A stretch of DNA of 64,000 nt, from the NCBI RefSeq assembly GCF_018128545.1, contig NZ_JAGSND010000011.1, forward strand, positions 1 to 64,000. The letters run 5' to 3'. The translations under genes were made by a program, and so were the position numbers. Below the pieces are notes generated by a model, which saw nothing but the letters and a program-made list of their open reading frames with translations, ran no database searches and was not told where the DNA came from. The first letter of the stretch is position 1. Every line of letters begins with the position of its first letter. Below, one piece after another: positions 15,078-52,831 of this stretch. Origin of the DNA: Sinanaerobacter chloroacetimidivorans. Its GTDB lineage: Bacteria; Bacillota; Clostridia; Peptostreptococcales; Anaerovoracaceae.

Positions 15078-15177
15078 CTATCTCATCCTTTCTTTCATTC
15101 CGGGACGTCCTGCCTTTCAGACATCACTTTCAAAGATTGTGATTGAATATATTATACCCCAAGCTTCGATCCTAAAC

Positions 15178-15270
15178 AATTCAGCTGTTTCCCCAGACCA
15201 CATGCAAAATAATTCAGCTGTTTCCCCAGACCGCATACAAAATAATTCGGCTGTTTACCGGGTCTGTACA
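15178..15270. repeat. 33-bp tandem repeats (2.8 copies) upstream of the ThrE-type genes
   Basis: Units begin at 15178, 15211 and 15244 with AATTCAGCTGTTTCCCC; the third is diverged and incomplete. The array ends directly on the predicted -35 element of the exporter promoter. It may be a set of regulator sites, each containing CAGCTG. Coding is unlikely because the plus-strand frame through it has no start signal and overlaps the exporter start. Confidence 0.85.
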
Positions 15271-30050: not shown

Positions 30051-31289
30051 TTACATAAGTTTGGATTTATCTTTTGACTTCACAATGACAACAATATCAG
30101 CATTGTCGGCGGAGTCATCGGTAATGTCATAAGCCCGGATCAGGCTTCCCCCTGTAATGTCAGCCAACACTCCGGATTTATATTCCTCTATGTTATTCCC
30201 ATCAAAAACAGCGATATAAAAGATTGCATCTTTCATCACTGTGATCTTATCCCCTGAGCCGGCCACCGTTATGATTTTATTCTCTCTGCCTTCCACTTCC
30301 TTCCATCCCCCGGTCAGTTCAGCATATCGTTTTGCCTTTAATTTTCTGCCATCCGTATCGGCGTCATTCACGATTCCATTTGACATTTTCAGGCAGTAGA
30401 TGCTGCCGTCAAAGCTTATGGGATTTGAGATAGTGTTCTTACCATCGGTATTTAAATGAAAAGTATCCTTGCCCATTAAAAACTCAATCTGCTGTACCTG
30501 ATCCCCATCTGTATTCAGAACCTTGGAAATGCCTAAAATCATTCCAAAGGCACGGCCGCTGAAATCTGAAAGTTTTCCCGCGCTTTGAGATTCTTTCGGT
30601 AAGTTGGACGGGGATTCTGAGTCTGATGGTGCCTCTGCACCTGATGAAGACTTTGAATCGTGTTCCTTGGCAGCTTCTGTTCCTTCTAAAGAACGAACGG
30701 CTGCTTCAGCCATCAAAGCCGCATTGCCCCTGGTTACCGCCTGACCGCTGTCAAACCCACTCAAATCTTCCGCTATGCCTTGAAAAGCACCCAATTCAAA
30801 GGCCTTATCCAAATAGTTCCGCGGCCAGCTTCCCTGAAGCTCGGATTCCTGATATCCCAATGCATTGACAAGCATTGCCGACAGTTCATAATAGGTCACA
30901 GGGCTTCCCGGCCGAAAGCTTCCGTTGCCATAGCCCTTTACGATCCCCTTTTCCAATGCGTGATCAATGTATTCTTCCGCCCAGCCGTATCCATTCAAAT
31001 CATTGAAATAATCGTTTTTTTCAGCCCGAATTGCTGATTCTGACGGATTTATACATTTCACGATCAGAAGGCAGGCCTCCGCCCGATTCAACGTCTTCTC
31101 CGGTCTGAAGGTGCCGTCTTCATAGCAGCTGACCACCCCTTTACCTATGAGAGTTTTCACCGCTTCCTCATAGAGACTGCCTGCTGTATCAGCAGGCAGC
31201 CTTTGGTTCTCTTCAAAATCAGCAAAAGTAGGAAAAGTAACCGCCAAGCCAAAAATAATAATTAAAAGTAAAACTAAAATTTTCTTCAT
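30051..31289 (-). CDS. SLH-domain protein with C-terminal module shared with another SLH protein here
   Basis: A 412-residue secreted protein. After a signal peptide (MKKILVLLLIIIFGLAVTF) three SLH units follow: GKGVVSCYEDGTFRPEKTLNRAEA, EKGIVKGYGNGSFRPGSPVTYYEL and a degenerate third with AVTRGNAALMAE. A Ser/Glu-rich linker (about 205-230) leads to a C-terminal domain that begins FSGRAFGMI and ends IRAYDITDDSADNADIVVI. The same landmarks occur in the SLH protein at 38232-39647. SLH units bind pyruvylated wall polymer. Start at 31289 has GGGGG upstream. It probably shares a transcript with the TolC-like gene. Confidence 0.85.
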   Translation of the reverse strand: MKKILVLLLIIIFGLAVTFPTFADFEENQRLPADTAGSLYEEAVKTLIGKGVVSCYEDGTFRPEKTLNRAEACLLIVKCINPSESAIRAEKNDYFNDLNGYGWAEEYIDHALEKGIVKGYGNGSFRPGSPVTYYELSAMLVNALGYQESELQGSWPRNYLDKAFELGAFQGIAEDLSGFDSGQAVTRGNAALMAEAAVRSLEGTEAAKEHDSKSSSGAEAPSDSESPSNLPKESQSAGKLSDFSGRAFGMILGISKVLNTDGDQVQQIEFLMGKDTFHLNTDGKNTISNPISFDGSIYCLKMSNGIVNDADTDGRKLKAKRYAELTGGWKEVEGRENKIITVAGSGDKITVMKDAIFYIAVFDGNNIEEYKSGVLADITGGSLIRAYDITDDSADNADIVVIVKSKDKSKLM

Positions 31290-31340
31290 AACTGCCCCCT
31301 TTTGTTTATTTGCCAAGGGTAAAACCATTTCTTTATAAAG

Positions 31341-31372
31341 GCATCTCCCCCGGAATCGCCGGGGGAGATTGC
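31341..31372 (-). terminator. Second hairpin downstream of the S-layer gene
   Basis: A perfect 11-base-pair GC-rich stem (31343-31353 with 31359-31369; ATCTCCCCCGG) around AATCG. It lies 51 bases before the next start codon, without a T-run, so it may stabilise the mRNA end or attenuate rather than fully terminate. Confidence 0.65.
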
Positions 31373-31375
31373 TGA

Positions 31376-31409
31376 GATAAAAGATCTCTGGTTTACAGAG
31401 ACCTTTTAC
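31376..31409 (-). terminator. First terminator downstream of the S-layer gene
   Basis: On the minus strand AAAGGTCTCTG-TAAA-CCAGAGATCTTTT forms a stem of about ten pairs ending in T-run, 46 bases after the stop codon. Together with the adjacent GC-rich hairpin it forms a double structure. Confidence 0.75.
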
Positions 31410-31454
31410 GTATCAAACGAACCGGTTAAGAACAGCCCGTTTATGCTGAAGGGA

Positions 31455-34283
31455 TTACTCGGCTTGCTTCATTGAAGTGACAACACCGTTGCTCACTTTA
31501 ATGCTGGAAAGCTTATCTCCTGCTGTCAGCTTTGCTTTCATATCTTCACTACCTATTCCGATAGTATTTCCATCTTTATCAAGAAGTTTGGTATCGTCAT
31601 TGATAGTATAAGTGGTTCCTCCTGCTGTAAACTTGGTAGCACTGGAGTTTACATAAGTTACCGTTACCACGTCGGAGCCCGTGCTGGTGTCAGAGTCGGT
31701 TCCCGGATTATCGATCACTATGATATTCATCAAGCCGTCATTGTTATCGTCATTGGTATCATAGAACCATACCGTAGCACCATTCTTTAAATTCTTCAGG
31801 TCACTTGTGCTTGCAGTTTTGAAATCTCCGCTGTCATTCTTATAAACAACCGCATCTTTTTCCAATTTAACACTCAATGTGTCATATTTATAAGTGTTGT
31901 TGGAGAAGGAAGACTTGGAAGCATCCGCAACGATTGCCTTTTCAGTAGCATAAGTGTCAGCTGAATCTGTCCAGGCCGGTACTAATCCCTTGATTTCTCC
32001 GCTGGCATTGAATTCAAGCTTAAAGAGCTTATCACCTGTGTTATTGGAGGCATTCGCACCATCCCTTGCTTTGGAGTAAACGCTCTCACTGGATAATCCG
32101 TAAGTCTTTTTCGCTCCGTCAATTAATAAGGTTGCCTGATAGTCTGAATCTCCGGAAGTCTTCTTCGCTTCTGTTACAACACCGTAAACTTCGTCTGATC
32201 CGCTGTAATCATAGAGCAGCATAGCCGCGATCTTATCGCTGTCGGTAACATATAAAGCACGAACATCGGAAGTATCCAGTACTTTTTCCAGAGTCGTTAC
32301 GCCATAGTTATCTTCGTCACTCATATCAGTGCCGTCGCCGGGAACTCCATCGAAGGAGAAGATCACTGCGCCGGTTCGGATCTGAGTATTGTCATAGTAT
32401 CCCTTGGCTGTGATATCGATTTGCTTTCCGGATCTGTCTACTGTTGTATAATCCTTGCCGTCTTTCAAGTTTTCGAAAGAGTCGATTACGCCGTCTTTAT
32501 CAACACCGTACTTGACAATGGATCCGCCTGTTACTTCCCACTTGATTGCATCAGTGGTCGTTACGCCAGGTACATAATCGGAGGCCTTGAACAGATCATT
32601 ATCTACGTCAAATACCTTGTCGGATCCGTCTGCCAGGAACAGCTTGATCTGGTTCTTATCGCCGATCTTTGTTCCGGCTGTACCTACTTCCAATACGACT
32701 GCATAATTGTCAGCCTTACCGGAAACTGCATCGTAATCATACATATATCCGTAAGCATCCAGATACGCTTTTATTTCGTCGCCGGTGTCAACATCATTTT
32801 TGTCAAAGTCAGTTGTTACGCCATTGTATTTAGAAAGCTTTTCATCTGCAAACAGGTACGTTTTGCCGCCGATGGTTACTTTTGTTTCGCTGCCTTCTTT
32901 GATTGCAGTGATTTCGCCCTCTGCCACTGTAGTACCTACAGCAATTCTTGTGATTTCGTCATCTTTGTTTGCATATACATAGACAACGTTATCAGCCTTA
33001 ATGTCGCTCAGTGATTTTACGCCAAATAATTCAAAAGAAGTCACATCAATTTCATCATCATCATTTTCAGCAAAATCTTTACCGAGCAGCGTATGATTTG
33101 AAGTAATATCTTTCAGATCATCTGCCTCAACCTTTTCGTCTGCATCCGCTTTCCAGAGTAATACGGAGAAAATTCCTTTGATCGTCTTTCCGCTTACATC
33201 TGCTGAAACGGTTACGATAGCTCCTGTTTTATCAGTGTCTAATGTCTGCTGATCGGAATCCAGGATCGTGCTTCCGGAGGATCCGGTTTCACCGTTCACA
33301 AATTCTATAGCAGTATCTTTGGAATCCAGTTCCTTGGAGGTTCCGCAGATTCCTTTGCTGGAAATATCATCCAGCTTGTATTCGGTGCCATCGGCAGTTT
33401 TGATTAGTTTATCTGCTGCTTTGTATTCACCGGTAACAAAAGTGGATTTCACATCTCCTACCGCAATGATTGCGTCTTCATCTGAGCCTTTGGTTAAGGT
33501 AAAGACTTTTGCGTATGCTCCTACATAAGGTCTGATATTGACAACCGCATCGTCAGCATCAGACTTTGTGATTACGGCATAATCTTCGGATTCTTCCGCA
33601 TCCAGATTGCTGATCAGTTTGATTATGTGTCCGTCTTTATCTTTCTTCTCGATAAATACTCCGTCAGCATCTGCATATCCCATATTACAGGTTAAGGCAT
33701 TGTAAAGCATGATAGCAACGTCGCCTCTGGTAGCGCCTACGCTTCCGCCGGCATTGACATCATCGGTGACGCCAAGAACTCTGGCTTTCTGAGTGAATAC
33801 TGCAGGCCAGGTACCGTTCATTTCTTTTACAGCCTCTGTATATCCCAGTGCTCTGACGATCATGGTGATGGCTTCGTCATAGGAAACTGTCTTTCCAGGT
33901 CTGAAAGTTCCGTCGCCATAGCCCTTAATGATACCCAGGCTCTGAGAATAGCCTACATAACCGCTAGCCCAGCCATATCCGGACATATCGGTGAAATTTG
34001 TGCTGGCTCCGGAAGCAGAGCTTTCCAAACCCAGAGTGGTAATGATAAATTTCGCCATTTCTGCTCTGTTAACTGTCTGCTGCGGCTTATAGGATCCGTC
34101 AGGATAACCTGCAACCACATTTAAAGCCGAGAGAACCGTTACGGCATCTTGATAAGCAGTTCCTTCTACATCCGAGAACTCTTTTACTGTTCTTGAGCTG
34201 GATGAAGAGGCAAAGGCCATGGAAAAGCTGCCCAGTACCAGTGCCAGCACCAGTACAAATGAGATTGTTTTTCTCATCCTCAT
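31455..34283 (-). CDS. Probable main S-layer protein with three SLH domains
   Basis: A 942-residue exported protein. The signal peptide (MRMRKTISFVLVLALVLGSFSMAFA) is followed by three SLH units (about 35-75, 95-140, 155-200) with VVAGYPDGSYKPQQTVNRAEM, IIKGYGDGTFRPGKTVSYDEA and GATRGDVAIMLYNAL. The remaining 740 residues are acidic, rich in Asp, Thr, Ser, Gly and Lys, with few aromatic residues and no cysteine cluster, typical of S-layer assembly domains. Evidence for high expression is the near-consensus promoter, strong AGGAGG and double 3' hairpin. That it is the major layer protein is an inference. Confidence 0.88.
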   Translation of the reverse strand: MRMRKTISFVLVLALVLGSFSMAFASSSSSRTVKEFSDVEGTAYQDAVTVLSALNVVAGYPDGSYKPQQTVNRAEMAKFIITTLGLESSASGASTNFTDMSGYGWASGYVGYSQSLGIIKGYGDGTFRPGKTVSYDEAITMIVRALGYTEAVKEMNGTWPAVFTQKARVLGVTDDVNAGGSVGATRGDVAIMLYNALTCNMGYADADGVFIEKKDKDGHIIKLISNLDAEESEDYAVITKSDADDAVVNIRPYVGAYAKVFTLTKGSDEDAIIAVGDVKSTFVTGEYKAADKLIKTADGTEYKLDDISSKGICGTSKELDSKDTAIEFVNGETGSSGSTILDSDQQTLDTDKTGAIVTVSADVSGKTIKGIFSVLLWKADADEKVEADDLKDITSNHTLLGKDFAENDDDEIDVTSFELFGVKSLSDIKADNVVYVYANKDDEITRIAVGTTVAEGEITAIKEGSETKVTIGGKTYLFADEKLSKYNGVTTDFDKNDVDTGDEIKAYLDAYGYMYDYDAVSGKADNYAVVLEVGTAGTKIGDKNQIKLFLADGSDKVFDVDNDLFKASDYVPGVTTTDAIKWEVTGGSIVKYGVDKDGVIDSFENLKDGKDYTTVDRSGKQIDITAKGYYDNTQIRTGAVIFSFDGVPGDGTDMSDEDNYGVTTLEKVLDTSDVRALYVTDSDKIAAMLLYDYSGSDEVYGVVTEAKKTSGDSDYQATLLIDGAKKTYGLSSESVYSKARDGANASNNTGDKLFKLEFNASGEIKGLVPAWTDSADTYATEKAIVADASKSSFSNNTYKYDTLSVKLEKDAVVYKNDSGDFKTASTSDLKNLKNGATVWFYDTNDDNNDGLMNIIVIDNPGTDSDTSTGSDVVTVTYVNSSATKFTAGGTTYTINDDTKLLDKDGNTIGIGSEDMKAKLTAGDKLSSIKVSNGVVTSMKQAE

Positions 34284-34310
34284 TTAAAATTCCTCCTTTA
34301 AAGTATTGTT

Positions 34311-34361
34311 TTTCGAAGGGGAACATTGTTACAATATACTTTCAAATAACCTCTCCCCTTC
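34311..34361 (-). promoter_or_regulatory. Hairpin in the 5' leader of the S-layer gene
   Basis: GAAGGGGA and TCCCCTTC pair at the ends of this segment, closing a loop of about 35 bases that itself contains AACATTGTT. It ends about 27 bases before the start codon and could stabilise the mRNA or modulate translation. Confidence 0.45.
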
Positions 34362-34428
34362 TTGAAGTAATTTGACATTATCTATAGAAATGCAGTTCGT
34401 TGAATCCCCGCATATTCTATCACATTGA

Positions 34429-34457
34429 ATTATACCTTTTGCCACTAAAGCAGTCAA
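34429..34457 (-). promoter_or_regulatory. Near-consensus promoter of the S-layer gene
   Basis: On the minus strand TTGACT (34452-34457), exactly 17 bases and TATAAT (34429-34434). The predicted start near 34422 gives a leader of about 139 bases. A 13-base direct repeat TATACTTTCAAAT occurs just upstream of the -35 (34460-34472) and again in the leader (34335-34347). Confidence 0.75.
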
Positions 34458-34499
34458 CCTATACTTTCAAATGTAACGAAATTGTAATACATCGGAAAG

Positions 34500-35123
34500 A
34501 AGTAATTTCCTAGGGTTTCGCTGGTTTTTCACCTGTTGGAGAAGCTTGTTTACCAGCCATTCCATCTCGCCTGTTTTCCTATGCTAGACAGGAACTTTAT
34601 AGGCGTATCCCCTTATCGGTTGATTATTATCAGGTATATATCCATTATAGCAGACAGAACCGATAAGTCCATTACAGACATATTACAGCTATGTTAACGT
34701 TCATCGCATTTTTAGTACAAAAAGTGGCAATGACCTTTATTTCAAGATAAAGGTCGTAATAAAATTACAATATGACTTATACGTCACACGCCAACATTCA
34801 ATATTGTCTTTAATTTTGCGATTTCCTGTGAATTGCGTTTTGTAGAAACTTCTAAAACATCAACTTTTTCTCGATGAAGATCTAGCGCAGTGGCGCGCTC
34901 ATATTTAGGCAAATGACTTGTCTGAATTTCCATCTGCTGTGTTGTCGTCACTCACCATAGCTACGGCTATGCCTCGTTCCTCCGCCTTGCAGGCCGAAAA
35001 TTCATCCTGCGTCATTTATCCAAAAGTGAACGTGTCACAACACTAGCGTAACACCCTGTTGAAGAACTTTTTCGTACAATGGTACATATCCTTCAGCGAG
35101 CTTCTGGATATTTGGAATTATGA
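34500..35123. other. Gene-poor stretch with mobile-element debris
   Basis: I see no intact gene. There is a ten-base inverted pair CTTATCGGTT/AACCGATAAG (34612-34621, 34658-34667), a perfect hairpin GACCTTTAT-TTCAAG-ATAAAGGTC (34732-34755) and a tetraloop hairpin CATAGC-TACG-GCTATG (34956-34971). A 49-codon minus-strand frame (34784-34933, beginning MEIQTSHLPKYERAT) has no ribosome binding site; it could be a fragment of a larger lost gene. The recombinase remnant follows directly. Confidence 0.5.
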
Positions 35124-35354
35124 TATTCTCATTGTCAAATTCCATTTTCCTTTGCATCTCTGTTATTGCAAGAAGGCGTAGATATTAAATTTATCCAAGA
35201 CTTTCTTGGACACAGCTCCATTGCCACTACTCAAATCTATCTTCATACCTCCGAGGGTAAGAAAAGAGAAATCATGTCAAAATTCCACCCCAGAGAAAAA
35301 ATCTTCTCTGCGGATAGTCGGGCCCATCATGATAGTAATATCCATCAAAAATAA
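35124..35354 (+). pseudogene. C-terminal remnant of a tyrosine recombinase
   Basis: The frame reads FASLLLQEGVDIKFIQDFLGH then SSIATTQIYLHTSEGKK, the final part of the XerC/XerD/phage integrase catalytic domain with the LGH histidine and the catalytic tyrosine in QIYLH. The N-terminal domain, the first arginine and the H-x-x-R segment (here the expected LRH before SFA reads IPF) are missing, and a stop codon lies at 35121-35123. No complementary fragment is seen nearby. It marks a former integration event beside the S-layer gene. Confidence 0.8.
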
Positions 35355-35552
35355 ACTGAATGAATCAAAATGATACAAACATAACACAAGATAGAATCAG
35401 AACAGTCTCTATAGTATTAAAATAAAGGGATCAAGGGATATACGAGCAACGGCACTTATTCACAATTTGAGGTCACCTAGAATAAAATACATTGCACAGA
35501 GTTTTACTCTCATAAAACCTATGCATTAATACAAGAAAGGAAATTGGTTATT

Positions 35553-36707
35553 ATGTATCAAGATGATAATCGTTCCTGGTGCTATGATCGACCATACTAT
35601 AGAGAACAATATAATGGAGATTGGGAAGAAGCCCCATGGGACAGAGGCGGATATTACGAAGAAAATCGAAACGATAGATATAGAATGTCTGATCAGTACG
35701 ACTATCAAAACCAACGAGAAAATTATGAAAATTACAAAAGGAACGATGACTACAGAAGAGATGATTCCTCTTACTGGTGCTATGACCGACCTTTAAAAAA
35801 ACACTGTCATAAAGAATGTGAGAAGCCATGGGAACACTGGAAAAAACCAGACCCCTGCGACTGCCACGAACCTTGCAAGCATGATCCTTGCGATAAATGG
35901 GATCCTTGCAAGCACGATCATCATGACAAGTGGGATCCTTGCAAGCACGACCACCATGATAAATGGGATCCTTGCAAACACGACCACCACGACAAATGTG
36001 ATCCTTGCAAGCACGACCATCACGACAAATGGGACCCTTGCAAACACGACCACCACGACAAATGGGATCCTTGCAAACACGACCACCACGACAAATGGGA
36101 TCCTTGTAAAAAATGTGATCCTTGCTGCGAGCCATGTGAGTGTTGTGAACCTTGCTTCTGCTGCGAAGATTGTGATCATGATTTTAAAAAGGATAAGAAA
36201 AATGGGGGTATTAATATCAATACCTCAGTGAATGTATGCCAAAACGGCGAAGCAAACGGCGGAGATGCTAACGGCGGTGCCGGAGGAAAAGCTGTCGGTG
36301 GTTCAGCTGCTGCAGCTGCAGCGGTAGCCGATCTGGTAGAAAACGGAACCGTGGATCAAAATGCACTTCTCCAAGCCCTTCTCGAGTTAGAAGGCGCTGC
36401 GGGGCTGGGAGGCCTTGCGGTAGGCGGAACCGGAGGTAACGGAGGAACTGCCGGAGCCGGTGGTTCAGTAAGCAACTCCGCAGTAGTGACCGTAGTTGAT
36501 GTTATTGTTTTTGTAGATAGTGCAAACAATATTCTTGACGGTATAGAGCCCGTTTCCCTTGATTTAAACGGCAGAAAAGTTGATATCAGATTGACTGACA
36601 ACGGCGAAACCTTTGTGAATGGTGAAAAATTAGCTGAACAACAATTAGAAAATGGAACTAAAGTTTATATCTTTAAAAACACAGAAACACAGGAATCCCA
36701 GGAATAA
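35553..36707 (+). CDS. Cys/His-rich repeat protein with Gly/Ala-rich C-terminal region, unknown
   Basis: A 384-residue protein without a signal peptide. Residues 1-80 are Tyr/Asp/Arg-rich and carry SWCYDRP and YWCYDRP near each end. Residues 108-184 are seven 11-residue units, CKHDPCDKWDP once and CKHDHHDKWDP six times (one with Cys for Trp). A cysteine run follows (185-207: CKKCDPCCEPCECC...). Residues 225-305 are Gly/Ala/Asn-rich, and 305-384 look like a small beta domain with VVTVVDVIVFVDSANN. Dense Cys/His suggests metal binding. A spore-coat, exosporium or surface role is a guess. GAAAGG precedes the ATG; a TTG nine bases earlier is too near that site. Confidence 0.85.
   Translation: MYQDDNRSWCYDRPYYREQYNGDWEEAPWDRGGYYEENRNDRYRMSDQYDYQNQRENYENYKRNDDYRRDDSSYWCYDRPLKKHCHKECEKPWEHWKKPDPCDCHEPCKHDPCDKWDPCKHDHHDKWDPCKHDHHDKWDPCKHDHHDKCDPCKHDHHDKWDPCKHDHHDKWDPCKHDHHDKWDPCKKCDPCCEPCECCEPCFCCEDCDHDFKKDKKNGGININTSVNVCQNGEANGGDANGGAGGKAVGGSAAAAAAVADLVENGTVDQNALLQALLELEGAAGLGGLAVGGTGGNGGTAGAGGSVSNSAVVTVVDVIVFVDSANNILDGIEPVSLDLNGRKVDIRLTDNGETFVNGEKLAEQQLENGTKVYIFKNTETQESQE
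35874..36104 (+). repeat. 33-bp coding tandem repeat, seven units
   Basis: The seven units encode the CKHDHHDKWDP array. Units differ mainly at third codon positions (AAG/AAA, GAT/GAC, CAT/CAC), so the protein repeat is better conserved than the DNA. This suggests selection on the peptide rather than a recent DNA expansion. Confidence 0.95.
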
Positions 36708-36724
36708 AAGAAACGTCATTTCCG

Positions 36725-36761
36725 GGGTCGGAGCCAGATGAATGGCTCTGACCCTTTTTTC
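36725..36761 (+). terminator. Terminator after the Cys/His-rich gene
   Basis: GGGTCGGAGCCA-GATGAA-TGGCTCTGACCC forms a 12-pair stem with one G-T pair and is followed by six T. It lies 17 bases after the stop codon. Confidence 0.9.
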
Positions 36762-36839
36762 TTTAAAGTCAGCCCTTTCTCATTAAAAATTTGAGGGAAA
36801 ATAGGCAAGCAGGTGTTAATTTTTAGGTATTACAGAGTA

Positions 36840-38024
36840 CTAAGTGTCTAGTTTGGATGCAATCATGAAGTTAACAAAAGAAATAACTAAAGCCCCTAAA
36901 AACACATACCGATAACCATTGGGCCCGTTGGAATACCATACATATCCGGCAAAGACCGGGACAAACATCGAAACGAGATGATCCATACTGACGCCCATAG
37001 AAATGGTTCTGGCCACTTCAGCGGGATCATGAGAATGCTTTCTGACGTAAGTGGCTCTTGCCATAGAGGCAGACTCCATGAGCTTATCCGCCACATAACT
37101 GATTCCCACAACAATCAGCGCTATGGTAAAAGACCCGAGAGACTTGGCAAAAACAAAGCCAATACACGCAACAAACATAATCACTGCTTCAAATTGGAGC
37201 GCGTAGCGCTCACCCTTCTTATCAATCAAATCCCCGAACCAGGGTTTAAAGAAAATGCTGATCACACAAACAATAAAGAAAAGCATTGTAATGGTAGTTA
37301 CAGGCTGGTGATACACGTCGATGATAAGCCAGGGGACGAAAGTCAGGGTGATCTGCTTTCTGGCACCATTAATGGTGGATAAAATATAATAAAGTTTAAA
37401 TTCCTTATGAAAAACAAACCGCTTTTCACAAATGATCTTCTTTCCTCCATTCTTAATGAAGAAAAAGAGCACACCGGCTAAAGCCATTGCGAAAGCAGCG
37501 ATAACAAACACCACTTGGTAAGTAACATGAAAAAAACGATACAAAATATAAAGCAATCCGCTGGTAATGATGATGGACAAGCTTCCAAGGCCCTGAACCT
37601 GACCCATTCTTTTGCCGAAATTCTCTCCTTCTGCAAAGCCCATAGCAATAGTACTTGATAACGGCAGATACAGATGCTGTCCAACACTGTAAATAACTAA
37701 GAAAAACAAAACCAAATAAAAGTGATTGGGTACTAACCCGAAGAAAAGCAGCCCGATACCGCCAATGATATTTGCCACCGCAGCGATTCGCATATCCCCA
37801 AGACCATTGAGCATGCCGAAGAAAACTACTGCCAAAAGTCCGGGTAATTCCCGCGGCGTTTCCAAAAGGGAACGCTGCATGACTGTAAAGTCCAGGTCTT
37901 CATATAATCGGTTGGCTAAAGAGGTGCTTTCTACAGCAGCGACGACTCCCAGAAGAACACTGATCACTAAAAAAATAAATAAATCCGCTGATATTTCATA
38001 TTTTCCTATTTTCACTTTATTCAA
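36840..38024 (-). CDS. MFS transporter
   Basis: A protein of about 394 residues with 12 predicted membrane helices in two halves. The inter-helix 2-3 loop reads NGLGDMRIAAVAN and the second-half equivalent FGDLIDKKGERYALQ, the positions of the MFS A-motif. Substrate unknown. The start is chosen at TTG 38024 because AAGGAG lies nine bases upstream; the ATG at 38045 lacks a site and would place that AAGGAG inside the coding region. It is a single gene, convergent with the Cys/His-rich gene. Confidence 0.88.
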   Translation of the reverse strand: MNKVKIGKYEISADLFIFLVISVLLGVVAAVESTSLANRLYEDLDFTVMQRSLLETPRELPGLLAVVFFGMLNGLGDMRIAAVANIIGGIGLLFFGLVPNHFYLVLFFLVIYSVGQHLYLPLSSTIAMGFAEGENFGKRMGQVQGLGSLSIIITSGLLYILYRFFHVTYQVVFVIAAFAMALAGVLFFFIKNGGKKIICEKRFVFHKEFKLYYILSTINGARKQITLTFVPWLIIDVYHQPVTTITMLFFIVCVISIFFKPWFGDLIDKKGERYALQFEAVIMFVACIGFVFAKSLGSFTIALIVVGISYVADKLMESASMARATYVRKHSHDPAEVARTISMGVSMDHLVSMFVPVFAGYVWYSNGPNGYRYVFLGALVISFVNFMIASKLDT

Positions 38025-38151
38025 TTGTCGATACTCCTTTTGCATGAACTTGCTGGATGGCGTGTCTATAGCAACCTTACCGCTTTACCGTCTCGTTAAC
38101 TGCTCTTTCACTTTGCAGCAGACCAACATCATTATATTACTGTATCACAAA

Positions 38152-38183
38152 AATAGGGCAACTGCCAATACAGTCACCCTATT
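38152..38183 (-). terminator. Terminator after the three-gene SLH cluster
   Basis: AATAGGGTGACTG and CAGTTGCCCTATT pair with two mismatches around TATTGG on the minus strand, followed by TTTTTG. It lies 49 bases after the stop of the SLH gene. Confidence 0.7.
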
Positions 38184-38231
38184 ACTATTTTTAATAGTTA
38201 TAAAATATTCTTGAAATTTGTCAAGTTATCT

Positions 38232-39647
38232 TTAATTCTTTTTAATTACTACAATATCGGCAGAAGCATCGTCATCGTCTGTTACATCATAAGCTCTGAT
38301 TTCCACTCCGGCTCTGATGTTGGATACCCTCCCCGCCGTATATTCGGTACCGTCAAGGACATACACCGAAGCATTGGATTTCACGGCAAAGAGCTCTCCG
38401 CCGTCACCGGCAATTATTTTTACCGCACTGTCGCTGTAGCTTTCCACTTCTACAAAATCTGCTCCCGAACCGGAGATCTCTTCAAATACATCTCCCCTAT
38501 AGCTCTCATTTGCCTTATAGATGCTCTGTACTTCTCCGTCGGAAAGATTTATTTCATAGACAGTTCCGTTCAGATACTCAGCGCTGGATGGTACCGGAGA
38601 AAGTCCTTTCTTGCCAAGCCAGGTTATTTCTCTGGTAGCAGTAAGGGTTTCCAAGCCGATTACCGATTCATTCTCACCGTTCAAAGTGGTCACGGTACCA
38701 TTAATAACACCGTAAGCTCTGCCGCTGAAGCCGACATTCATCGGTACCACCATGGCAACAATCTTATTGTTTTCCAGCTGATAAAAAGCCGGTGTTTTTA
38801 CATTTTTATATTTATATACTGTATCAACCCGGTAATCAGCAATTTTCTTTGAGAAGGTCATGGTGCTGCTGTAATCCTTTTTCAGACCGTAAGTATACAC
38901 TGTTACATCTCCGGCAATGGTTTTGCCGTTGTAAGTGGACATGGTATCGTTAAAGCTGCCGCTGGCAACATAGGTCATATTCGAAGCGGCAGGGATTTCC
39001 GATGGTTTATCCTGATCCGTACCCTGTCCCGGAGTCTCTGCCGGCGGATTTGCTGCTTCTATTTTGCTTAATGCGTTATAATCAACCTGTGCAGCCATCC
39101 ATTTTGTAGCGTATGAAGGAAGTGTCGCAGGAAGACCCGCCAGCAATTCTAATTCTACAGCTTTATTCACGTAATTTGACGGCCAGGTACCCCCCAGCGT
39201 TTCATCGGAATAGTCCGCAGCTCTGAGAACCATGGTAATGAACTCATTCATGGAAACCGGATTTCCGGGCTTAAATGTTCCATCCGGATACCCTTTCGTT
39301 ACGCCCTGTTTTACCGCATAGCTGATATATCCTTCTGCCCATCCGTAGCCGGACATATCGGAGAAACTGCTTTTCTGTACTGCCTGGGTGGCTGTGCCTG
39401 TCACCTCGGCAGCAGGCGGATTCATCGATTTCACTACAATAATGCAGGCCTGAGCTCTGGTCAGCTGAGAATCAGGATGAAAACTGCCGTCCGTATCTCC
39501 GGTAATGATCCCCTTTTCTACAAGAGCCGCAACGGCTTCTTCATAGGTCTGACCTTTAACGTCCTCCGGTACCGCCGCAAAGGCAGTGGCGCCCGAAAGA
39601 GCCAGGATCAGAACAATTGCAACAACTTTCAAAAATTGTTTTTTCAT
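38232..39647 (-). CDS. SLH-domain protein with FSGRA/IRAYD module
   Basis: A 471-residue secreted protein: signal peptide (MKKQFLKVVAIVLILALSGATAFA), SLH units at about 30-70 (GIITGDTDGSFHPDSQLTRAQA) and 95-135 (GVTKGYPDGTFKPGNPVSMNE), and a degenerate third (about 155-195). A Pro-rich linker follows, then a beta-rich region of 270 residues. Its middle has FSGRAYGVING and its end IRAYDVTDDDDASADIVVI, matching the SLH protein at 30051-31289. GGGGG precedes the ATG. It is 31 bases downstream of the next SLH gene. Confidence 0.87.
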   Translation of the reverse strand: MKKQFLKVVAIVLILALSGATAFAAVPEDVKGQTYEEAVAALVEKGIITGDTDGSFHPDSQLTRAQACIIVVKSMNPPAAEVTGTATQAVQKSSFSDMSGYGWAEGYISYAVKQGVTKGYPDGTFKPGNPVSMNEFITMVLRAADYSDETLGGTWPSNYVNKAVELELLAGLPATLPSYATKWMAAQVDYNALSKIEAANPPAETPGQGTDQDKPSEIPAASNMTYVASGSFNDTMSTYNGKTIAGDVTVYTYGLKKDYSSTMTFSKKIADYRVDTVYKYKNVKTPAFYQLENNKIVAMVVPMNVGFSGRAYGVINGTVTTLNGENESVIGLETLTATREITWLGKKGLSPVPSSAEYLNGTVYEINLSDGEVQSIYKANESYRGDVFEEISGSGADFVEVESYSDSAVKIIAGDGGELFAVKSNASVYVLDGTEYTAGRVSNIRAGVEIRAYDVTDDDDASADIVVIKKN

Positions 39648-39678
39648 GTTTCTACCCCCTTGTGTTCCTATCTATTCT

Positions 39679-40305
39679 TTAATTTTTTGGCATCATTCGG
39701 TACATCAGTTTTGCCGTATCCCCTCTGGTAGCTGCCGCATTCCAATCTGTTATCACTACATCACCAAGAAGATTATAGGTTTGCGCATACTGAATGTAAT
39801 TGTTTGGCCAAGTGCCGTAGCCTTCAATTTCCGATGCCGCTCCTCCTTTTGTTCTGATAAGCATGGTGATTAATTCCGCATAGCTGATATTTTTGGCCGG
39901 TGCAAAGGAGGTACCGGACATTCCTTTAACAATTCCCGCATCTGCCATGGTATTAATGTAACCCTTTGCCCAGCCATAACCTGCCAGATCATTGAATTTG
40001 TCTACAGTTTCCATGGCTGCAAGACTGCTTGTTCTGTTGGTCATCTTGGTAAGGGCAACGGCAACTTCTGCTCTTGTAATCTGGTTCTCCGGTTTAAAAG
40101 TGCCGTCGGAGTAACCGGTGAACACTTTTTGATCAATTAAAAATTTAACCGGTGTAAACAGCGGCGTATTGATAACATCGGACGGGTAAGCCGCCTGGGA
40201 ATTCCACTGACTATAGTCTACATCGGCAAATGCCACAGCCGTTGCAGAAGTCAGTGTCAATGCCAACGTTACCATCAGGACAAGGACCTTTTTGGTGATT
40301 TTCAT
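39679..40305 (-). CDS. Minimal exported protein made only of SLH domains
   Basis: The 208-residue product has a signal peptide (MKITKKVLVLMVTLALTLTS). It then consists of three SLH-type units only (KVFTGYSDGTFKPENQITRAEV; AGIVKGMSGTSFAPAKNISYAE; a third with AAATRGDTAKLMYRMM) and no effector domain. It could bind wall polymer as a spacer or compete for sites with the larger SLH proteins. I chose ATG 40305 with AAAGGGGAG upstream over the ATG at 40350. Confidence 0.85.
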   Translation of the reverse strand: MKITKKVLVLMVTLALTLTSATAVAFADVDYSQWNSQAAYPSDVINTPLFTPVKFLIDQKVFTGYSDGTFKPENQITRAEVAVALTKMTNRTSSLAAMETVDKFNDLAGYGWAKGYINTMADAGIVKGMSGTSFAPAKNISYAELITMLIRTKGGAASEIEGYGTWPNNYIQYAQTYNLLGDVVITDWNAAATRGDTAKLMYRMMPKN

Positions 40306-40358
40306 GGTTTTCTCCCCTTTCGGTATTTCAATTACATCATTTCGAAGCATATACTTTT

Positions 40359-40387
40359 ATTATAACAAAGCAAAAATTTTAAGTCCA
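40359..40387 (-). promoter_or_regulatory. Candidate promoter of the minimal SLH gene
   Basis: TGGACT (40382-40387), 17 bases, TATAAT (40359-40364) on the minus strand, 54 bases before the start codon. It implies that this gene can be expressed separately from the upstream SLH/GLUG gene. Confidence 0.45.
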
Positions 40388-40405
40388 TTACATCCGTATT
40401 ACAAA

Positions 40406-42820
40406 TTAAAGAATGATTGCCGGATATAAATATTTTGTTTCCAAATCTTCCGACGCTATGGTGTTTCCGGTGCTGTCGTCGCTGGGAACCTCAATTGGCG
40501 CTACGATTCCGCCGCCGTCGGAAATCACCGTATTTCCACCTGTACTGCCCGATGTGACAGAGTAGAGATATTTCCAAACCGCTGCTGGTTCTGTTTTGTT
40601 GATAACATCTGCGCTTGTTTTATTGTTTGCATTCATAACATCTACCACAAGTTCATAGCCATTGCTTGTTTTGATCCTGGTCTGCCCTGAAAGTTCTTCG
40701 TGGGTTACTTTTTTTACCAGCTGTTGACTGGCCGTTCCGTCAGAAAGCCCCACACCGGCAGTTCCGGTCGTATCTAACCAAAAGCTGTTGCTCAGAGCAG
40801 CCGCATTTCTCCCTACCAAACTGCCAGCGCCATTTTCTCCCGTAACCTTACCGGCTCCGTAAACATTGGTAATGGTTCCTAAGTTTTTACCGGCGATACC
40901 TCCGATATAATTGGTTCCGTTTATCTTTCCCGAATTATAACTGTTGTCGATTTTCGATTCGTTTTCTCCGGTAATGCCTCCGGCAAAGCTTTTTGCCGTA
41001 ACTTTTCCTTCATTATAGCATTTGGAAATTTTACCCATTCCATTCTGCTGGTAGGCCGCGATTCCGCCGCCGTCCAGATTGGCTTCCACCGTGCCGGAGT
41101 TATAGCAGTAGCTGATGATACCCTGGTTGTTGCCTACGATACCCCCTGCACCATTCCCTGCAACTGTCCCTGAATTTTGACTTTGGGTTACGGTTGCTTT
41201 TGAGGTTTCCAGCAGACCTGCAATCCCTCCATTGACACCGGAGCCCGTTACGGTACCGGAGTTTCCGCAGGATTCTATTTGTATGCTATAGTTGCTGCCG
41301 CTGGCAGCTCCGGCAATTCCGCCCGCATTATAGGGTCCGGCATTTACCGTGCCTTTATTGTAGCATTCTTTTATTACAGAAGACTCACCGGCAGCGGAAG
41401 CAAAGCTCCCTACGATACCTCCTGTTCTTTCGTTTCCATTTACGGTACCCTCATTCTGGCAAGAAATTAATGCGGTCCCCGGTGCATTGACTGCTCCTGC
41501 AATTCCACCGGTGTTTGCGGATTTGCCCGTTACCGTTCCCTGATTTTTCAAGGAGGTAAGCGTTGCAGTACTGAAGCCGACGATACCTCCCGTATTGGTT
41601 GATCCGTTTACCGTACCTTTACTGCCGAGCCGGCAATTCTTTATGGTTCCCTCAGTATATCCTGCAATGGACCCGGTATATTGATTCCCTGTGATGGAAG
41701 ATGAATTTATCGTTAAATCCTCGACGCTTCCTCCTTGTCCAACATAGCCAAAAAGGCCGGCATAACTTGCTGCTGGTTTGCCTGAGCCTCCGGATCCTTT
41801 GCTGCCCCCTACCGTGCCGGTAATGTTCAAACCGCTGATGGTATGGCCGTCACCATCCAGGCACCCTTTAAAGGGTATGGCCTTGCTGCCGATTGGCTGG
41901 AAATTTCCGGCACTCCAGTCATCCTCACCGGAGGCGATTGCAGGAGCTGCCGTAACAAAATCTTTCGTAATGGCAATATCTTTCGTCAGAATATAAAAAG
42001 CACCTTCTGTCACATGCATTCTGATATGGTTAAGCTGCTCTTCCGTTGCAATTTGATAAGGGTCATTCCTTGTGCCCTCTCCTTTGGTGAAGGCCCCCTG
42101 GGTTACGCTGTGGACCTGGGAACATCCAGTCAGAGTCAATTCTTCCGCATTGGCAGCGATTACAGATTCGTTCTTTTTTACATTTAATAATATCGCAGCG
42201 GCTTCCGCTCTGGTAAGCGCCATGGTAGGCCGGAAGTTCCCTTCCGTATCCCCCTTCATATAGCCTTTTTTAAACATGAGATCCACATAGGGATACGCCC
42301 AAGCTGCTATATTTCCTTTATCTAACGCCGTTTCAACACCTTTTGCACTGTCGTCGTCACTTCCGGGTATTACGGAACCGGCAACCTTTGCCGCTTCCTG
42401 TCTGCTGATCATCAGTCCGATACCGAAGGTTCCGTCTTCATAGCCGGAGGTGATCCCTGCTGCCACTGCGATTTTAATCGTAGGCACATACCATTCATAG
42501 TCCAGCACATCGGTAAAATTTACCTTGGTATTGGCGATATCCGGCGTCACCGTCAGAATATTGGTGAGCAGTTTATAGAATTCTTCTCTTTTTATGAGGT
42601 TATCCGGCAAATACGTACCGTCCATATATCCCCCTACTATTTTTAGACTCGCTGCTTCTTTTATAATATTCTCAGCCCAGTGACCGCTTATATCCGAAAA
42701 CGTCGCTGTTTGAGCAGCACTTTGCTGCTCTGAAGAGGTCTCCCCATAGGCGCTCCCCGTTCCTGCGGAAAGAATCAGCATAAAAGATACTACAAACGAT
42801 ATCAATTTCTTCTTTTTCAT
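40406..42820 (-). CDS. SLH protein with about twelve GLUG-like repeats
   Basis: An 804-residue exported protein. The signal peptide is followed by three SLH units (about 35-75, 100-145, 180-215: IVGGYMDGTYLPDNLIKREEF, ITSGYEDGTFGIGLMISRQEA, YMKGDTEGNFRPTMALTRAEA). A short segment TRNDPYQIATEEQLNHIR, typical of proteins bearing GLUG repeats, leads into about twelve GGI[AV]G-type units (residues about 350-690; for example NTGGIVG, NAGGIAG, YIGGIAGKN), which likely fold as a right-handed beta-helix. The role is probably adhesion or wall surface display. ATG 42820 follows GGAGG by eight bases. Confidence 0.88.
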   Translation of the reverse strand: MKKKKLISFVVSFMLILSAGTGSAYGETSSEQQSAAQTATFSDISGHWAENIIKEAASLKIVGGYMDGTYLPDNLIKREEFYKLLTNILTVTPDIANTKVNFTDVLDYEWYVPTIKIAVAAGITSGYEDGTFGIGLMISRQEAAKVAGSVIPGSDDDSAKGVETALDKGNIAAWAYPYVDLMFKKGYMKGDTEGNFRPTMALTRAEAAAILLNVKKNESVIAANAEELTLTGCSQVHSVTQGAFTKGEGTRNDPYQIATEEQLNHIRMHVTEGAFYILTKDIAITKDFVTAAPAIASGEDDWSAGNFQPIGSKAIPFKGCLDGDGHTISGLNITGTVGGSKGSGGSGKPAASYAGLFGYVGQGGSVEDLTINSSSITGNQYTGSIAGYTEGTIKNCRLGSKGTVNGSTNTGGIVGFSTATLTSLKNQGTVTGKSANTGGIAGAVNAPGTALISCQNEGTVNGNERTGGIVGSFASAAGESSVIKECYNKGTVNAGPYNAGGIAGAASGSNYSIQIESCGNSGTVTGSGVNGGIAGLLETSKATVTQSQNSGTVAGNGAGGIVGNNQGIISYCYNSGTVEANLDGGGIAAYQQNGMGKISKCYNEGKVTAKSFAGGITGENESKIDNSYNSGKINGTNYIGGIAGKNLGTITNVYGAGKVTGENGAGSLVGRNAAALSNSFWLDTTGTAGVGLSDGTASQQLVKKVTHEELSGQTRIKTSNGYELVVDVMNANNKTSADVINKTEPAAVWKYLYSVTSGSTGGNTVISDGGGIVAPIEVPSDDSTGNTIASEDLETKYLYPAIIL

Positions 42821-43081
42821 CTCAATTTCCTCCAAAATTTCCCCATCATGACCGGAACAATTTACCTGATTATATCGTCAAAGAATTATGTAGAATCAGC
42901 CGTATAATCACATTCTGATGTTTTCATTATATTCCCTGGTTTTGGGGGTGTCCAGCAAAAAACGGACCAGATTCGACAGGATTTCATGTTGGAATTGTAT
43001 TTCTGATTCTGATGTGGTAAAATTTAGGAACAATGTGTGTATCAATTACTGTATAACAGTAAAAAGGGAGGGACTTAATAA

Positions 43082-45976
43082 ATGAGATTGAAAAAAATCG
43101 GGAGCGGTTTGCTGGCGATTATGCTTGCTGTAACGATAGCGGCGCCATCCCAAAGTTTTGGGGCCGGCAAACTTACCGATACTGCCGGACATTGGGCCGA
43201 ATCCTATATAAATACGGCTGTAAACAAGGGAATCATAACCGGATATCAGGACAAAACTTTTTTACCGGATAAAGCTGTAACAAGGGCAGAATTTGCTACC
43301 ATGATCAATAAAGCCCTGGGCAACGGAAGTTCCGCGTCCATAGGCTTTGCAGACGTACCGTACTACGAATGGTATTATGATGCCGTTTCCAAAGCGGTTT
43401 CGGCCTCTTACGCAGGCGGTTACGATGACAATACCTTTAAGCCGAACAATCCGATCACCAGGCAGGAAGCCGCCGTTATGATTTCCAGGATCGTTCCTGC
43501 TTACAAGGTCAGCGGAAACCTAAAATCCTATTCCGACTATAAGACCATTGCCGACTGGGCTTATGACGCCATGGCCAGAATGAACGGCAAAGGTTATATA
43601 GGAGCTTACAGCGACGGTAAAATTCATCCGACGGATCCTTTAACCAGGGCACAGACTGCAAAAATCATCTGTGATATTCTGGATAACGAAACCATCGTTA
43701 CCAGCAGTCCTGTCATAGACGACGACGGAACGAAGCTTTCCAATAAAATTTATGTAAACAATGTTACCATTGACGAAGACCTTGGTGACGACAGCGCTAC
43801 CATAGACAATTGTGTTATCCTGGGAAATTTAAATGTAAAAGGCGGTGGTGAGGATACCATTACCATCAATAATTCCAGAGTCTCCAATGTTACCGTTGAT
43901 AAGGACGACAGCGCCGTACGGATTCTTGCGAAGGGGGAAACTTCCATTGCCAAGTTAAGCGCATCGGAATCATCAATCCTGCAGACAGCCAGCCTGTCCG
44001 GCGGATTTTTCGGCCCCGGATTCAGCAACATTACAATAAACAGTTCAGCGGAAGTCACGCTGAAGGGCAGTTTTCCGCTGGTAAATATCAACGGTTCAAA
44101 AGCCAATGTCATTCTCGACTCCGGTACGATTACAACGCTTAACGTAACCGGCAGCGGCAAGTATTCCAATATTACTGCCTCAGGAAGTACTACAATCAGT
44201 CAGGCAACCGTTAACAGCGAATCCTATTTCCACGGAACAGGCACTATTACAAAGATGAATGTAAATGCTGACGGAATCACTTACGAAACGAAACCGAAAA
44301 GCTGGACCATCGCCTCAAGAGTTGATACCCCCAAGGAAGCGGATGCCGTGCTTTCCGTAACCTTCAGTCCTAAGAATAAAGCGACGGATGTGAAATTAGA
44401 TACGAAAATTACAATTACCTTCGGGTCTGCCATGAAGCTCCGTAACGGCAGCAGTATCAGCAACTCTGATATCAGTGATTTTATTACCATCAGAAAAAGC
44501 TCCACTTCAGGCAGCAAGGTGAGCTTTTCTGCCACCATCAACAGTGCAAAAAAAGAAATCACTATAACTCCAAGTTCAAATTTAAGCGAAAACACCCGAT
44601 ACTATGTGATTATAGAAGATAATACCCTGAAGGACTCCGACGGCAACACCAATGACGAACAGTCCATCTATTTCAACACCGGCACTGCTACTTCTGCTTT
44701 TACTACCACCTATAGTCCTGCAAATGGAGCAACTGGAATATCCATTAATCCTTCTATCAACATCACATTTTCAGAAAGTGTGGTACGGTACAGTAATGGT
44801 AACACGATTAGTACCAACGACTCCTATTTGAAGGAGTGTATCGTATTCAGAAAAGACAGTGCCAGCGGCACGGAGGTGCCCTATTCCGTAAGCATCAGTT
44901 CTGCGAAAAAGATAACAATTACACCGAATTCCAGCTTGGAAGCAAACAAAAAGTATTACGTGGCGGTTTTAGGAAGCAGGTTTAAAACGAGCAGCAACGG
45001 TACAGCAGTAGCTGCTTCATCTGCTACATGGACCGTAGGGGTCTCGGCTCCTTCGTTAAGCAACTTTAGCCTTTCCGCTTTAGATACCAGTATCACAGCG
45101 TCCTTTAACCCAAATGTGGCCGGAAAAGTCTATTTGGTTGCGATTCCGGTTCCCGCAAGCGGTTCTGTAGGCACTCCTTCCGTTACTCAAATTAAGAACG
45201 GAAAGACCAGTACCGACCAGACAGCTGCCGCTTCCCAGAATACAACTGTAACTGCAAGTACTTCAAAATCTGTAACCTTTAGTAATTTGGATACCGAAAC
45301 GTCCTATAAGTTTTTTGCAGTTTTAGAGGATTCTCAAGGGAATCCGTCCTCCATACAGTCTGATACTGCTAAAACAACTTCACTAAACCTTAAGACCCTG
45401 TCCATCAGGCCAAACGGCGGATCGAATATCTTAAGCAGCAGCTTTTCATCAACCAATTATTCCTATACGGACATCAGCGTACCTAACGGAACTTCCTATG
45501 TTGATGTAAATGCTGTGGCAAACAGAGAAGCTTTTGTAGGGGAAGTCACCATCAACAATACGGTTGGCAATTCACTGCAAGTTGATTTGCAGGGCAGCCC
45601 GGGGTCAAGAACTGCCAGGATAGAAGTTAAAATCCAGGAAATCGGCAAAAGTCCTCGCCTTTATACGGTAACAGTAAAAGAATTAGGCAGTACAAAACTG
45701 CAGTCGGTGACAATAAACGGCAATCCCTATACCATCGGAAGTAACTACGAAATCGCTGCTGATACATCCGACGTCAGCCTGATGTTAACACCGGAAGACA
45801 GCAGTGCCATCCTGACCATGAGCGGCCAGCAATTGCAGTGGAATCAACCAATTCCGTTAAGTCTCAGCGATACAACCAATATGAATCCATCGGTTACCTT
45901 TACGGTACGGACCGCGGACGGAAGATCCACACAGGACCACGTGATTAGATTTAAAAGAACCACCCCAACCCCATAA
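43082..45976 (+). CDS. SLH protein with Ig-like and cadherin-like domains
   Basis: A 964-residue exported protein, divergent from the SLH/GLUG gene. Order: signal peptide (to about 28), three SLH units (about 30-70, 92-135, 150-195: IITGYQDKTFLPDKAVTRAEF, YAGGYDDNTFKPNNPITRQEA, YIGAYSDGKIHPTDPLTRAQT), and a beta-strand-rich Asn/Ser/Thr region with TITINNSRVSNVT. Two SbsA-type Ig-like domains follow (SPKNKATDVKLDTKITITF and SPANGATGISINPSINITF), then a fibronectin-like domain and a cadherin-like beta-sandwich with SSTNYSYTDISVPNGTS. GGGAGGG precedes the ATG. It lacks the C-terminal module of the other SLH proteins. Confidence 0.88.
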   Translation: MRLKKIGSGLLAIMLAVTIAAPSQSFGAGKLTDTAGHWAESYINTAVNKGIITGYQDKTFLPDKAVTRAEFATMINKALGNGSSASIGFADVPYYEWYYDAVSKAVSASYAGGYDDNTFKPNNPITRQEAAVMISRIVPAYKVSGNLKSYSDYKTIADWAYDAMARMNGKGYIGAYSDGKIHPTDPLTRAQTAKIICDILDNETIVTSSPVIDDDGTKLSNKIYVNNVTIDEDLGDDSATIDNCVILGNLNVKGGGEDTITINNSRVSNVTVDKDDSAVRILAKGETSIAKLSASESSILQTASLSGGFFGPGFSNITINSSAEVTLKGSFPLVNINGSKANVILDSGTITTLNVTGSGKYSNITASGSTTISQATVNSESYFHGTGTITKMNVNADGITYETKPKSWTIASRVDTPKEADAVLSVTFSPKNKATDVKLDTKITITFGSAMKLRNGSSISNSDISDFITIRKSSTSGSKVSFSATINSAKKEITITPSSNLSENTRYYVIIEDNTLKDSDGNTNDEQSIYFNTGTATSAFTTTYSPANGATGISINPSINITFSESVVRYSNGNTISTNDSYLKECIVFRKDSASGTEVPYSVSISSAKKITITPNSSLEANKKYYVAVLGSRFKTSSNGTAVAASSATWTVGVSAPSLSNFSLSALDTSITASFNPNVAGKVYLVAIPVPASGSVGTPSVTQIKNGKTSTDQTAAASQNTTVTASTSKSVTFSNLDTETSYKFFAVLEDSQGNPSSIQSDTAKTTSLNLKTLSIRPNGGSNILSSSFSSTNYSYTDISVPNGTSYVDVNAVANREAFVGEVTINNTVGNSLQVDLQGSPGSRTARIEVKIQEIGKSPRLYTVTVKELGSTKLQSVTINGNPYTIGSNYEIAADTSDVSLMLTPEDSSAILTMSGQQLQWNQPIPLSLSDTTNMNPSVTFTVRTADGRSTQDHVIRFKRTTPTP

Positions 45977-46011: not shown

Positions 46012-46506
46012 CTATTTCATATGGGATCCATCGCAAAAGGGAGCGTTCTTGCTTAGTCCGCACCGGCACAGTACCATCTGGCTCGATTCCTTGATGAGCT
46101 CTCCATCTGCATCGATAAGACGAATGGGACCTCGTACCAAAAATGGGCCGTTCTTTACTGCTTTAATCTGCACCGCTGTCGTCGCATCCGGTTTATAGTC
46201 CACTGAACCTGGCCCTTTGGCTTTGTTCGGATCTATTTTGGAGCCCTCCGGCAGCTTGTATCGTAATGCACCTGTGGGACAGCTGTCTATGGCTTTTATA
46301 ATATTCTCAAGATCAGCGGACGCCAGTGTGATCCATGGTCTTTTTTCGGGATTGAAAACCTCCGGCATAGCTTTCATGCATTTCCCCGAATGGGAACACT
46401 CTGCGGGGTACCAGAAAACAATAAGATCCTCCGTTTTATATTCTTTCGTTATATTTTTCTTTTGCACATCAACAGATTTTTGATCTTCTGTTTTATCCTG
46501 CTTCAT
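46012..46506 (-). CDS. Two-domain iron-sulphur protein (Fer4-like plus CDGSH)
   Basis: A 164-residue cytoplasmic protein. The first domain (about 25-90) has CSHSGKCMKAMPEVF and SCPTGALRY, a divergent single-cluster ferredoxin domain. The second (about 110-162) has LCRCGLSKNAPFCDGSH, the three-Cys one-His 2Fe-2S binding motif of the CDGSH family. Such fusions are known but their reaction is not; redox or cluster transfer is likely. It stands alone between surface-protein genes. Confidence 0.9.
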   Translation of the reverse strand: MKQDKTEDQKSVDVQKKNITKEYKTEDLIVFWYPAECSHSGKCMKAMPEVFNPEKRPWITLASADLENIIKAIDSCPTGALRYKLPEGSKIDPNKAKGPGSVDYKPDATTAVQIKAVKNGPFLVRGPIRLIDADGELIKESSQMVLCRCGLSKNAPFCDGSHMK

Positions 46507-46648
46507 TACGCCTCTCCTTCTTTTTATTCCCTTTACTTTTTATTCACTTTATTTGTATTTTCTTTTAGCCTACATCCCTTAATTATCTTTGTCAACATTT
46601 TCCTTAATTTATCGGCATTTACCTGCTTTCGCCATGGACAATATCAGA

Positions 46649-52801: not shown

Positions 52802-52831
52802 AAAAGCCCTCCTTTCCTATTAGGACGATTG

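Follow-up and report, generated by a model that had tools for sequence, protein, structure and literature searches.

The window, i.e. the whole stretch of 64,000 nucleotides from Sinanaerobacter chloroacetimidivorans that was analysed here, carries an open reading frame (ORF) for a Cys- and His-rich repeat protein, which a sequence-only reading had described as a combination of seven 11-residue units, a dense cysteine run, paired WCYDRP motifs and a Gly/Ala-rich tail with a beta domain. This description could be confirmed: the frame and the array of units were located exactly (35553-36707 on the + strand, with the units at residues 108-184), the cysteine run contains 11 Cys in 23 residues (185-207), and WCYDRP is present at residues 9 and 75. 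The tail is indeed rich in Gly and Ala. AlphaFold2 placed strands at its end with low confidence (mean pLDDT 45.3), and the model of the tail relative G055 reached a mean pLDDT of 36.2; we regard both models as below usable confidence. The features of the locus are compiled in Table 1.

Table 1 Features of the gene at 35553-36707 and of its flanks; positions refer to the window, residues to the 384-aa protein.
Feature	Position	Strand	Remarks
Tyrosine recombinase C-terminal fragment	35166-35354		just upstream of the gene; Pfam Phage_integrase
Possible sigma-K-like promoter (AC, spacer, AATAAAATA)	35460..35489	+	one mismatch to consensus; weak
Ribosome-binding-site-like AAAGGA	35536..35541	+	11 nt before ATG, seen in sequence
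Cys/His-repeat protein gene with family tail	35553..36707	+	384 aa, ATG start, TAA stop
Tyr/Arg/Asp-rich N-terminal segment	35553..35798	+	residues 1-82: 15 Tyr, 12 Arg, 13 Asp
WCYDRP motif no. 1	35577..35594	+	residues 9-14
WCYDRP motif no. 2	35775..35792	+	residues 75-80
Cys/His/Trp linker KHCHKECEKPWEHWKKPDPCDCHEP	35799..35873	+	residues 83-107
Seven 33-bp units, CKHD(HH/PC)DK(W/C)DP	35874..36104	+	residues 108-184
Cys run	36105..36173	+	residues 185-207
Gly/Ala-rich region, GGxGG runs	36222..36464	+	aligns with like stretches of relatives G055 and G044, also G066
Conserved C-terminal domain	36465..36704	+	ends FVNGEKL...LENGTKVYIFK; strands predicted, low confidence
Intrinsic terminator	36724..36755	+	13-pair stem, then T run; fold z -4.79

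By residue count, the protein contains 27 Cys, 24 His, 12 Trp and 16 Tyr; 36 of the Cys and His residues are located within residues 83-184, followed by the 11 Cys of the run. Cys and His account for 7.0% and 6.2% of the residues, compared with means of 0.96% and 1.32% (maxima 3.7% and 5.3%) in 42 other ORFs picked from the ORF list of the window as a reference. There are eight CxxC positions, and in all but one of the seven units three His are accompanied by one or two Cys as potential metal ligands. The highest mean hydropathy among 15-residue windows starting in the first 60 residues was -1.8, and a signal-peptide-like hydrophobic segment was found neither in this protein nor in the five tail relatives described below. 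The adjoining gene for a major facilitator superfamily (MFS) permease lies in the opposite orientation. With regard to transcription, the promoter-like stretch in Table 1 scores sigma-E-like and sigma-A-like as well as sigma-K-like. In a scan of the six family genes, with one mismatch to the sigma-K consensus tolerated, sigma-K-like sites occurred upstream of three genes vs 0.76 expected, a weak excess, and sigma-E-like sites upstream of three genes vs 1.62 expected.

The whole protein had no match in Pfam or NCBIfam (E up to 10) or in PHROGs (E up to 1), and searching with the last 95 residues alone gave only sub-threshold matches to Ubiquitin_5 and FHA. Phages and plasmids yielded no match to the protein, and none of the 204 and 1 pattern matches from two scans of viral contigs was confirmed. 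The PDB gave 4 and 40 sequence matches with E no higher than 10 (lowest 0.19 and 0.015), which were read as low-complexity. The earlier statement that the architecture is not recognisable holds for the repeat, which is without a library match, but not for the tail, which has relatives: the sensitive profile search proposed in the sequence-only reading gave no described family in Pfam, NCBIfam or PHROGs, and the tail profile led to an unnamed one.

A first search of 61 genomes identified two relatives by their tail, besides the own genome, and a profile built from three tails detected the tail in 6 of the 393 genomes of an order sample, the own genome included (E <= 1e-3). The five relatives are proteins of 213 aa (G044), 209 aa (G055), 221 aa (G066), 139 aa (G138, where a partial copy of 96 aa stands in tandem) and 62 aa (G157, nearly tail-only), and residues 305-384 aligned to each of them with a score above all 2000 shuffles. 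Within the genome families sampled, the tail gene was present in 3/3 genomes of f9 and in 1/16 of f11, the family of G138, while a scan of the own family (197 genomes) gave clear matches in G000 and G157 and weak ones in 40 others. At wider range, the class scan (391 genomes) added weak matches only, in 20 genomes besides the own, and the phylum scan (388 genomes) returned the own genome alone at E <= 1e-4. A profile of four relatives run against species genomes recovered four loci (L046-L049), which correspond to the same four relatives and are recorded as Clostridia bacterium, Anaerovorax odorimutans, Clostridiales bacterium and Bacillota bacterium. The 384-aa protein is not an orphan: judged by sequence similarity, its tail marks it as a member of a rare family that has no name.

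The CKHDHHDKWDP units are absent from all five relatives, and richness in Cys is not a family trait because G044, G055, G066 and G138 contain only 3-4 Cys each. By eye, the start of G138 (YYTWCKPRPL) resembles WCYDRPL at the second WCYDRP motif. The f9 relatives (L007:403-1068, L003:1354-1995, L002:540-1169) share the start Y(V/R/Q)YVGDP and GGDGG runs, which we presume might pack as polyglycine helices. The weak tail matches from the class and family scans were re-read in the matching frames for loci L011-L045, and most of them are, by eye, other proteins (GlmS-like with 'MCGIVGY', signal peptidase, ABC ATPase, and further MurB-like and SLH or other surface proteins). Unannotated proteins with a tail-like ending in G677, G408, G438 and G482, some of them in tandem, may represent remote tail relatives; they were left out of the family count. 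The unannotated proteins seen in other Clostridia at L011:1504-3098 (-), L015, L017, L031 and L026, some in tandem and some with Cys-containing or N/Q-rich bodies, have endings such as DKDGNVFVNGEKV and are possibly remote relatives of the tail. Several sub-threshold matches were not used, namely those of G055 to DUF2020 and DUF6426 and to three PHROGs of unknown function (E 0.01-0.12), an Obg match to the f9 relative G066 (E 0.81), and a Coat_F match of a protein located 8 kb from the G055 gene.

The distribution of the tail was compared with that of sporulation genes. SpoIVA and Spo0A are both present in five of the six tail carriers, the own genome among them; neither was found in the sixth, G138, which is a 76%-complete assembly. 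SpoIVA exceeded the cut-off in 157/393 genomes of the order sample, and five of six carriers against this rate of 40% corresponds to about 0.04 in a hand-calculated binomial that ignores kinship. Among the SpoIVA-positive genomes of the order sample, 152 of 157 are without a tail match (E <= 1e-3). All three f9 genomes, each of which carries the tail gene, are positive for SpoIVA; in f11, SpoIVA was detected in each of the 15 genomes that lack the tail and not in the single carrier. The association of the tail family with sporulation is modest, and the link to sporulation genes supports a role in the spore rather than proving it. As to neighbourhood, GerB-, GerC- and GerA-type germination genes are located upstream of the family gene in G044, the last of them ending about 3.2 kb before it, and a GT4 glycosyltransferase gene follows just downstream. 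The upstream side of L046 and L048 cannot be judged because these loci begin within about 0.6 kb upstream. In L049, the genes upstream of the G138 gene are dehydrogenase-complex-like (by eye) and a GDSL lipase, and no germination gene was seen there.

Cys-rich proteins that build spore shells have, according to the source cited, little sequence in common between lineages (PMC7333573), and they are easily missed by homology. In Clostridioides difficile, CdeC (405 aa, 9% Cys) is described as an exosporium morphogenetic protein (PMC6101409, PMC7677010) and CdeM (161 aa, 8.7% Cys) as an exosporium protein in which CHK and CNCCNCCRK recur and an Asn/Gly stretch is present; both are reported as single genes under sigma-K that encode short Cys repeats and no conserved domain (PMC6101409). 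The protein studied here is similar to CdeC as described in size and, at a somewhat lower level, in Cys content, in the lack of a conserved domain, in being encoded by a single gene and in its Pro-Cys repeats (10 DPC compared with 6 NPC in CdeC). However, in a comparison by motif, it contains 0/5 of the CdeC motifs given in these sources (NPC, KKNKRR, HHH, CCRQGKGK, CNECC; PMC6101409, PMC7677010). Two of the patterns listed as redox-sensitive in CdeC, CX2CX(6-7)CX4CX(3-4)C and CX8CX(6-7)C, match once each at residue 188, within the Cys run, where a chance match is easy, and the third, VDXFX3CXF (PMC7677010), is absent. With CdeM the protein shares, by eye, CHK, CKH, CECC and CFCC as well as a Gly-rich stretch, but the description of the shorter CdeM includes neither a conserved tail nor an 11-residue His unit. 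CsxA, ExsY and CotY are characterised as mutually unrelated, Cys-rich and self-assembling proteins of exosporium lattices, held by disulfides, and glycosyltransferase genes are reported to be frequent near csxA homologues (PMC7333573). Richness in Cys is common to these proteins and the one studied here, whose formation of a lattice is hypothetical; compared by description, it differs from them, with no match in Pfam or NCBIfam. CC motifs have been described for endospore appendages as well (PMC11952670). By analogy, the protein resembles CdeC and CdeM in kind and plausibly works in a manner like CdeC, CdeM, CsxA, ExsY and CotY, but we do not file it as CdeC because none of the five CdeC motifs is present.

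Three roles had been offered for the protein, i.e. metal storage, a cross-linked spore or surface coat and a metal-dependent scaffold; on balance, the evidence points to the spore coat. We favour this option because SpoIVA and Spo0A accompany the tail in most carriers, a hydrophobic leader is lacking, the gene has its own terminator, and the protein is similar to CdeC and CdeM; against it stand the absence of the tail from most SpoIVA-positive genomes of the order sample and the neighbours in the window, which are SLH-type (S-layer homology) genes and not spore genes. Our best reading, held with moderate confidence, is that of a structural component of the coat or the exosporium of the spore, cross-linked by disulfides and possibly by metal, in which a lineage-specific Cys/His cross-linking cassette is joined to a rare conserved tail. 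Literature searches found nothing on a spore coat protein with Cys-rich, His-rich tandem repeats, and only unrelated work on a His-rich spore coat protein in combination with zinc and on Anaerovorax in combination with spore and S-layer.

We infer expression during sporulation, location, cross-linking, the involvement of metal and the roles of the parts as follows. The mother cell would synthesise the protein, which would carry no signal peptide. The tail, which is conserved between species, would direct how the protein assembles or docks on the spore as it forms, and the Gly-rich stretch would provide spacing or packing. The N-terminal half, i.e. the Tyr-rich arm, the seven Cys/His/Trp units and the Cys run, would represent the lineage-specific cassette that sets through disulfide bonds at mother-cell lysis, perhaps with the help of a soft metal such as Zn that is held by Cys and His from adjacent units; the spacing of these residues makes metal binding plausible. 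A further-reaching version, which we consider rather unlikely, is a modular family of spore-surface proteins with one docking tail and exchangeable N-terminal cassettes, represented here by a metal-templated Cys/His/Trp polymer. Metal would then align neighbouring CKHDHHDKWDP units, before disulfide and tyrosine cross-links fix the shell at mother-cell lysis. If confirmed, the unnamed family would be one in which a conserved tail can be separated from a cross-linking part that changes fast, and the 11-residue Cys/His unit might be of use as a material that sets by itself and possibly responds to metal.

The same density of Cys and His, the CxxC positions and the ligand residues of the units would also suit a metal buffer in the cytosol or the spore lumen, in which the units, together with the CxxC/CC run, would provide the ligands for Zn, Ni, Cu or Fe and the tail would merely stabilise or localise the metal store or sink. 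This is unlikely: the neighbours of the gene are the MFS permease and SLH-type genes, none of them recognised as a metal transporter or metal regulator, and the relatives G044, G055 and G066 lack the repeat and most of the Cys. Metallothioneins are small, Cys-dominated proteins with few aromatic residues. Dense Cys/His is common to the protein studied here and to metallothioneins and His-rich metal-binding proteins, but the former is larger than metallothioneins, rich in Trp, Tyr and Asp, and differs from both groups in its Gly-rich conserved tail and in having no match in Pfam or NCBIfam.

The genomic setting bears on another alternative. The gene lies in a cluster of SLH-type genes (30051-45976), for which Pfam SLH was shown for 43082-45976 and the assignment of the others is based on mutual similarity; the gene order is largely kept in G157 and partly elsewhere in the family. 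A very large ORF near these genes (46649-52801, 2050 aa) has an apparent N-terminal signal peptide by eye. In G157, the 62-aa ORF has two Cys near the start, with the tail behind them, and shares 40% identity with residues 341-380 (E 4.8e-6). It adjoins homologues of 38232-39647, 39679-40350, 40406-42835 and 43082-45976 (50%, 61%, 55% and 44% identity, respectively), whose order and strands agree with those of the window; next comes a gene with 88% identity to window 54279-55790. The match of the slot is inexact: the window has the MFS gene between the Cys/His-repeat gene and 38232-39647 and additional genes at 46012-53902, and the SLH-type gene that borders the slot on its opposite side in G157 shows 32% identity to 31455-34283 and slightly more (34%) to another window gene. 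The tail ORF was not found in seven other f1 genomes (5-12 kb from the SLH471 gene onward; the best seven of nine genomes matching this neighbour), which keep the neighbouring SLH genes. Because G157 is nearly tail-only and the slot is empty in these seven genomes, the tail gene comes and goes, and the N-terminal half is dispensable for inheritance of the tail. By eye, recombinase-like ORFs are present near the slot in G292 and G157 as well; the idea of a mobile-element cargo was set aside because the recombinase-like fragment in G292 occurs without the tail gene.

This setting could be taken to indicate a vegetative partner of the S-layer cluster, e.g. a scaffold in the cytoplasm or the cell wall that is inherited together with the SLH proteins, as the gene sits among SLH-type genes and its nearly tail-only version occupies the corresponding slot in G157. 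Such a role is quite improbable, since the protein contains neither a signal-peptide-like segment nor an SLH domain (Pfam), the slot is empty in genomes that retain the SLH genes, and no SLH-like gene was recognised by eye in the loci read for the four relatives outside the own family.

The array itself consists of five CKHDHHDKWDP units, one CKHDHHDKCDP (unit 4) and one degenerate first unit, CKHDPCDKWDP; Tandem Repeats Finder reported it as a 33-bp array of 6.5 copies with 90% matches and a score of 341. The six full units differ in eight columns, all of which are third codon positions (8/8) and seven of which are silent, the sole non-silent one being the change from W to C in unit 4, and a simple pairwise count gave a pN of 0.012 and a pS of 0.74. 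Therefore, selection on the peptide in this frame is supported, as had been suggested earlier from synonymous differences, and the codon pattern shows that the repeat peptide is conserved. It is very improbable that the repeat is a recent low-complexity expansion, largely or wholly functionless, within a small tail protein that serves another purpose: its absence from the five relatives would fit, and peptide patterns including KHDHHDKW matched 12 stretches in 84,980 species genomes with no relative confirmed (a bare repeat may escape confirmation by tblastn, and records close to the own genome were possibly excluded), but a neutral expansion does not predict the observed restriction of the variable columns to third codon positions, mostly silent. 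Another short 33-bp tandem repeat (2.5 copies) is located in an intergenic region of the window at 15174-15256.
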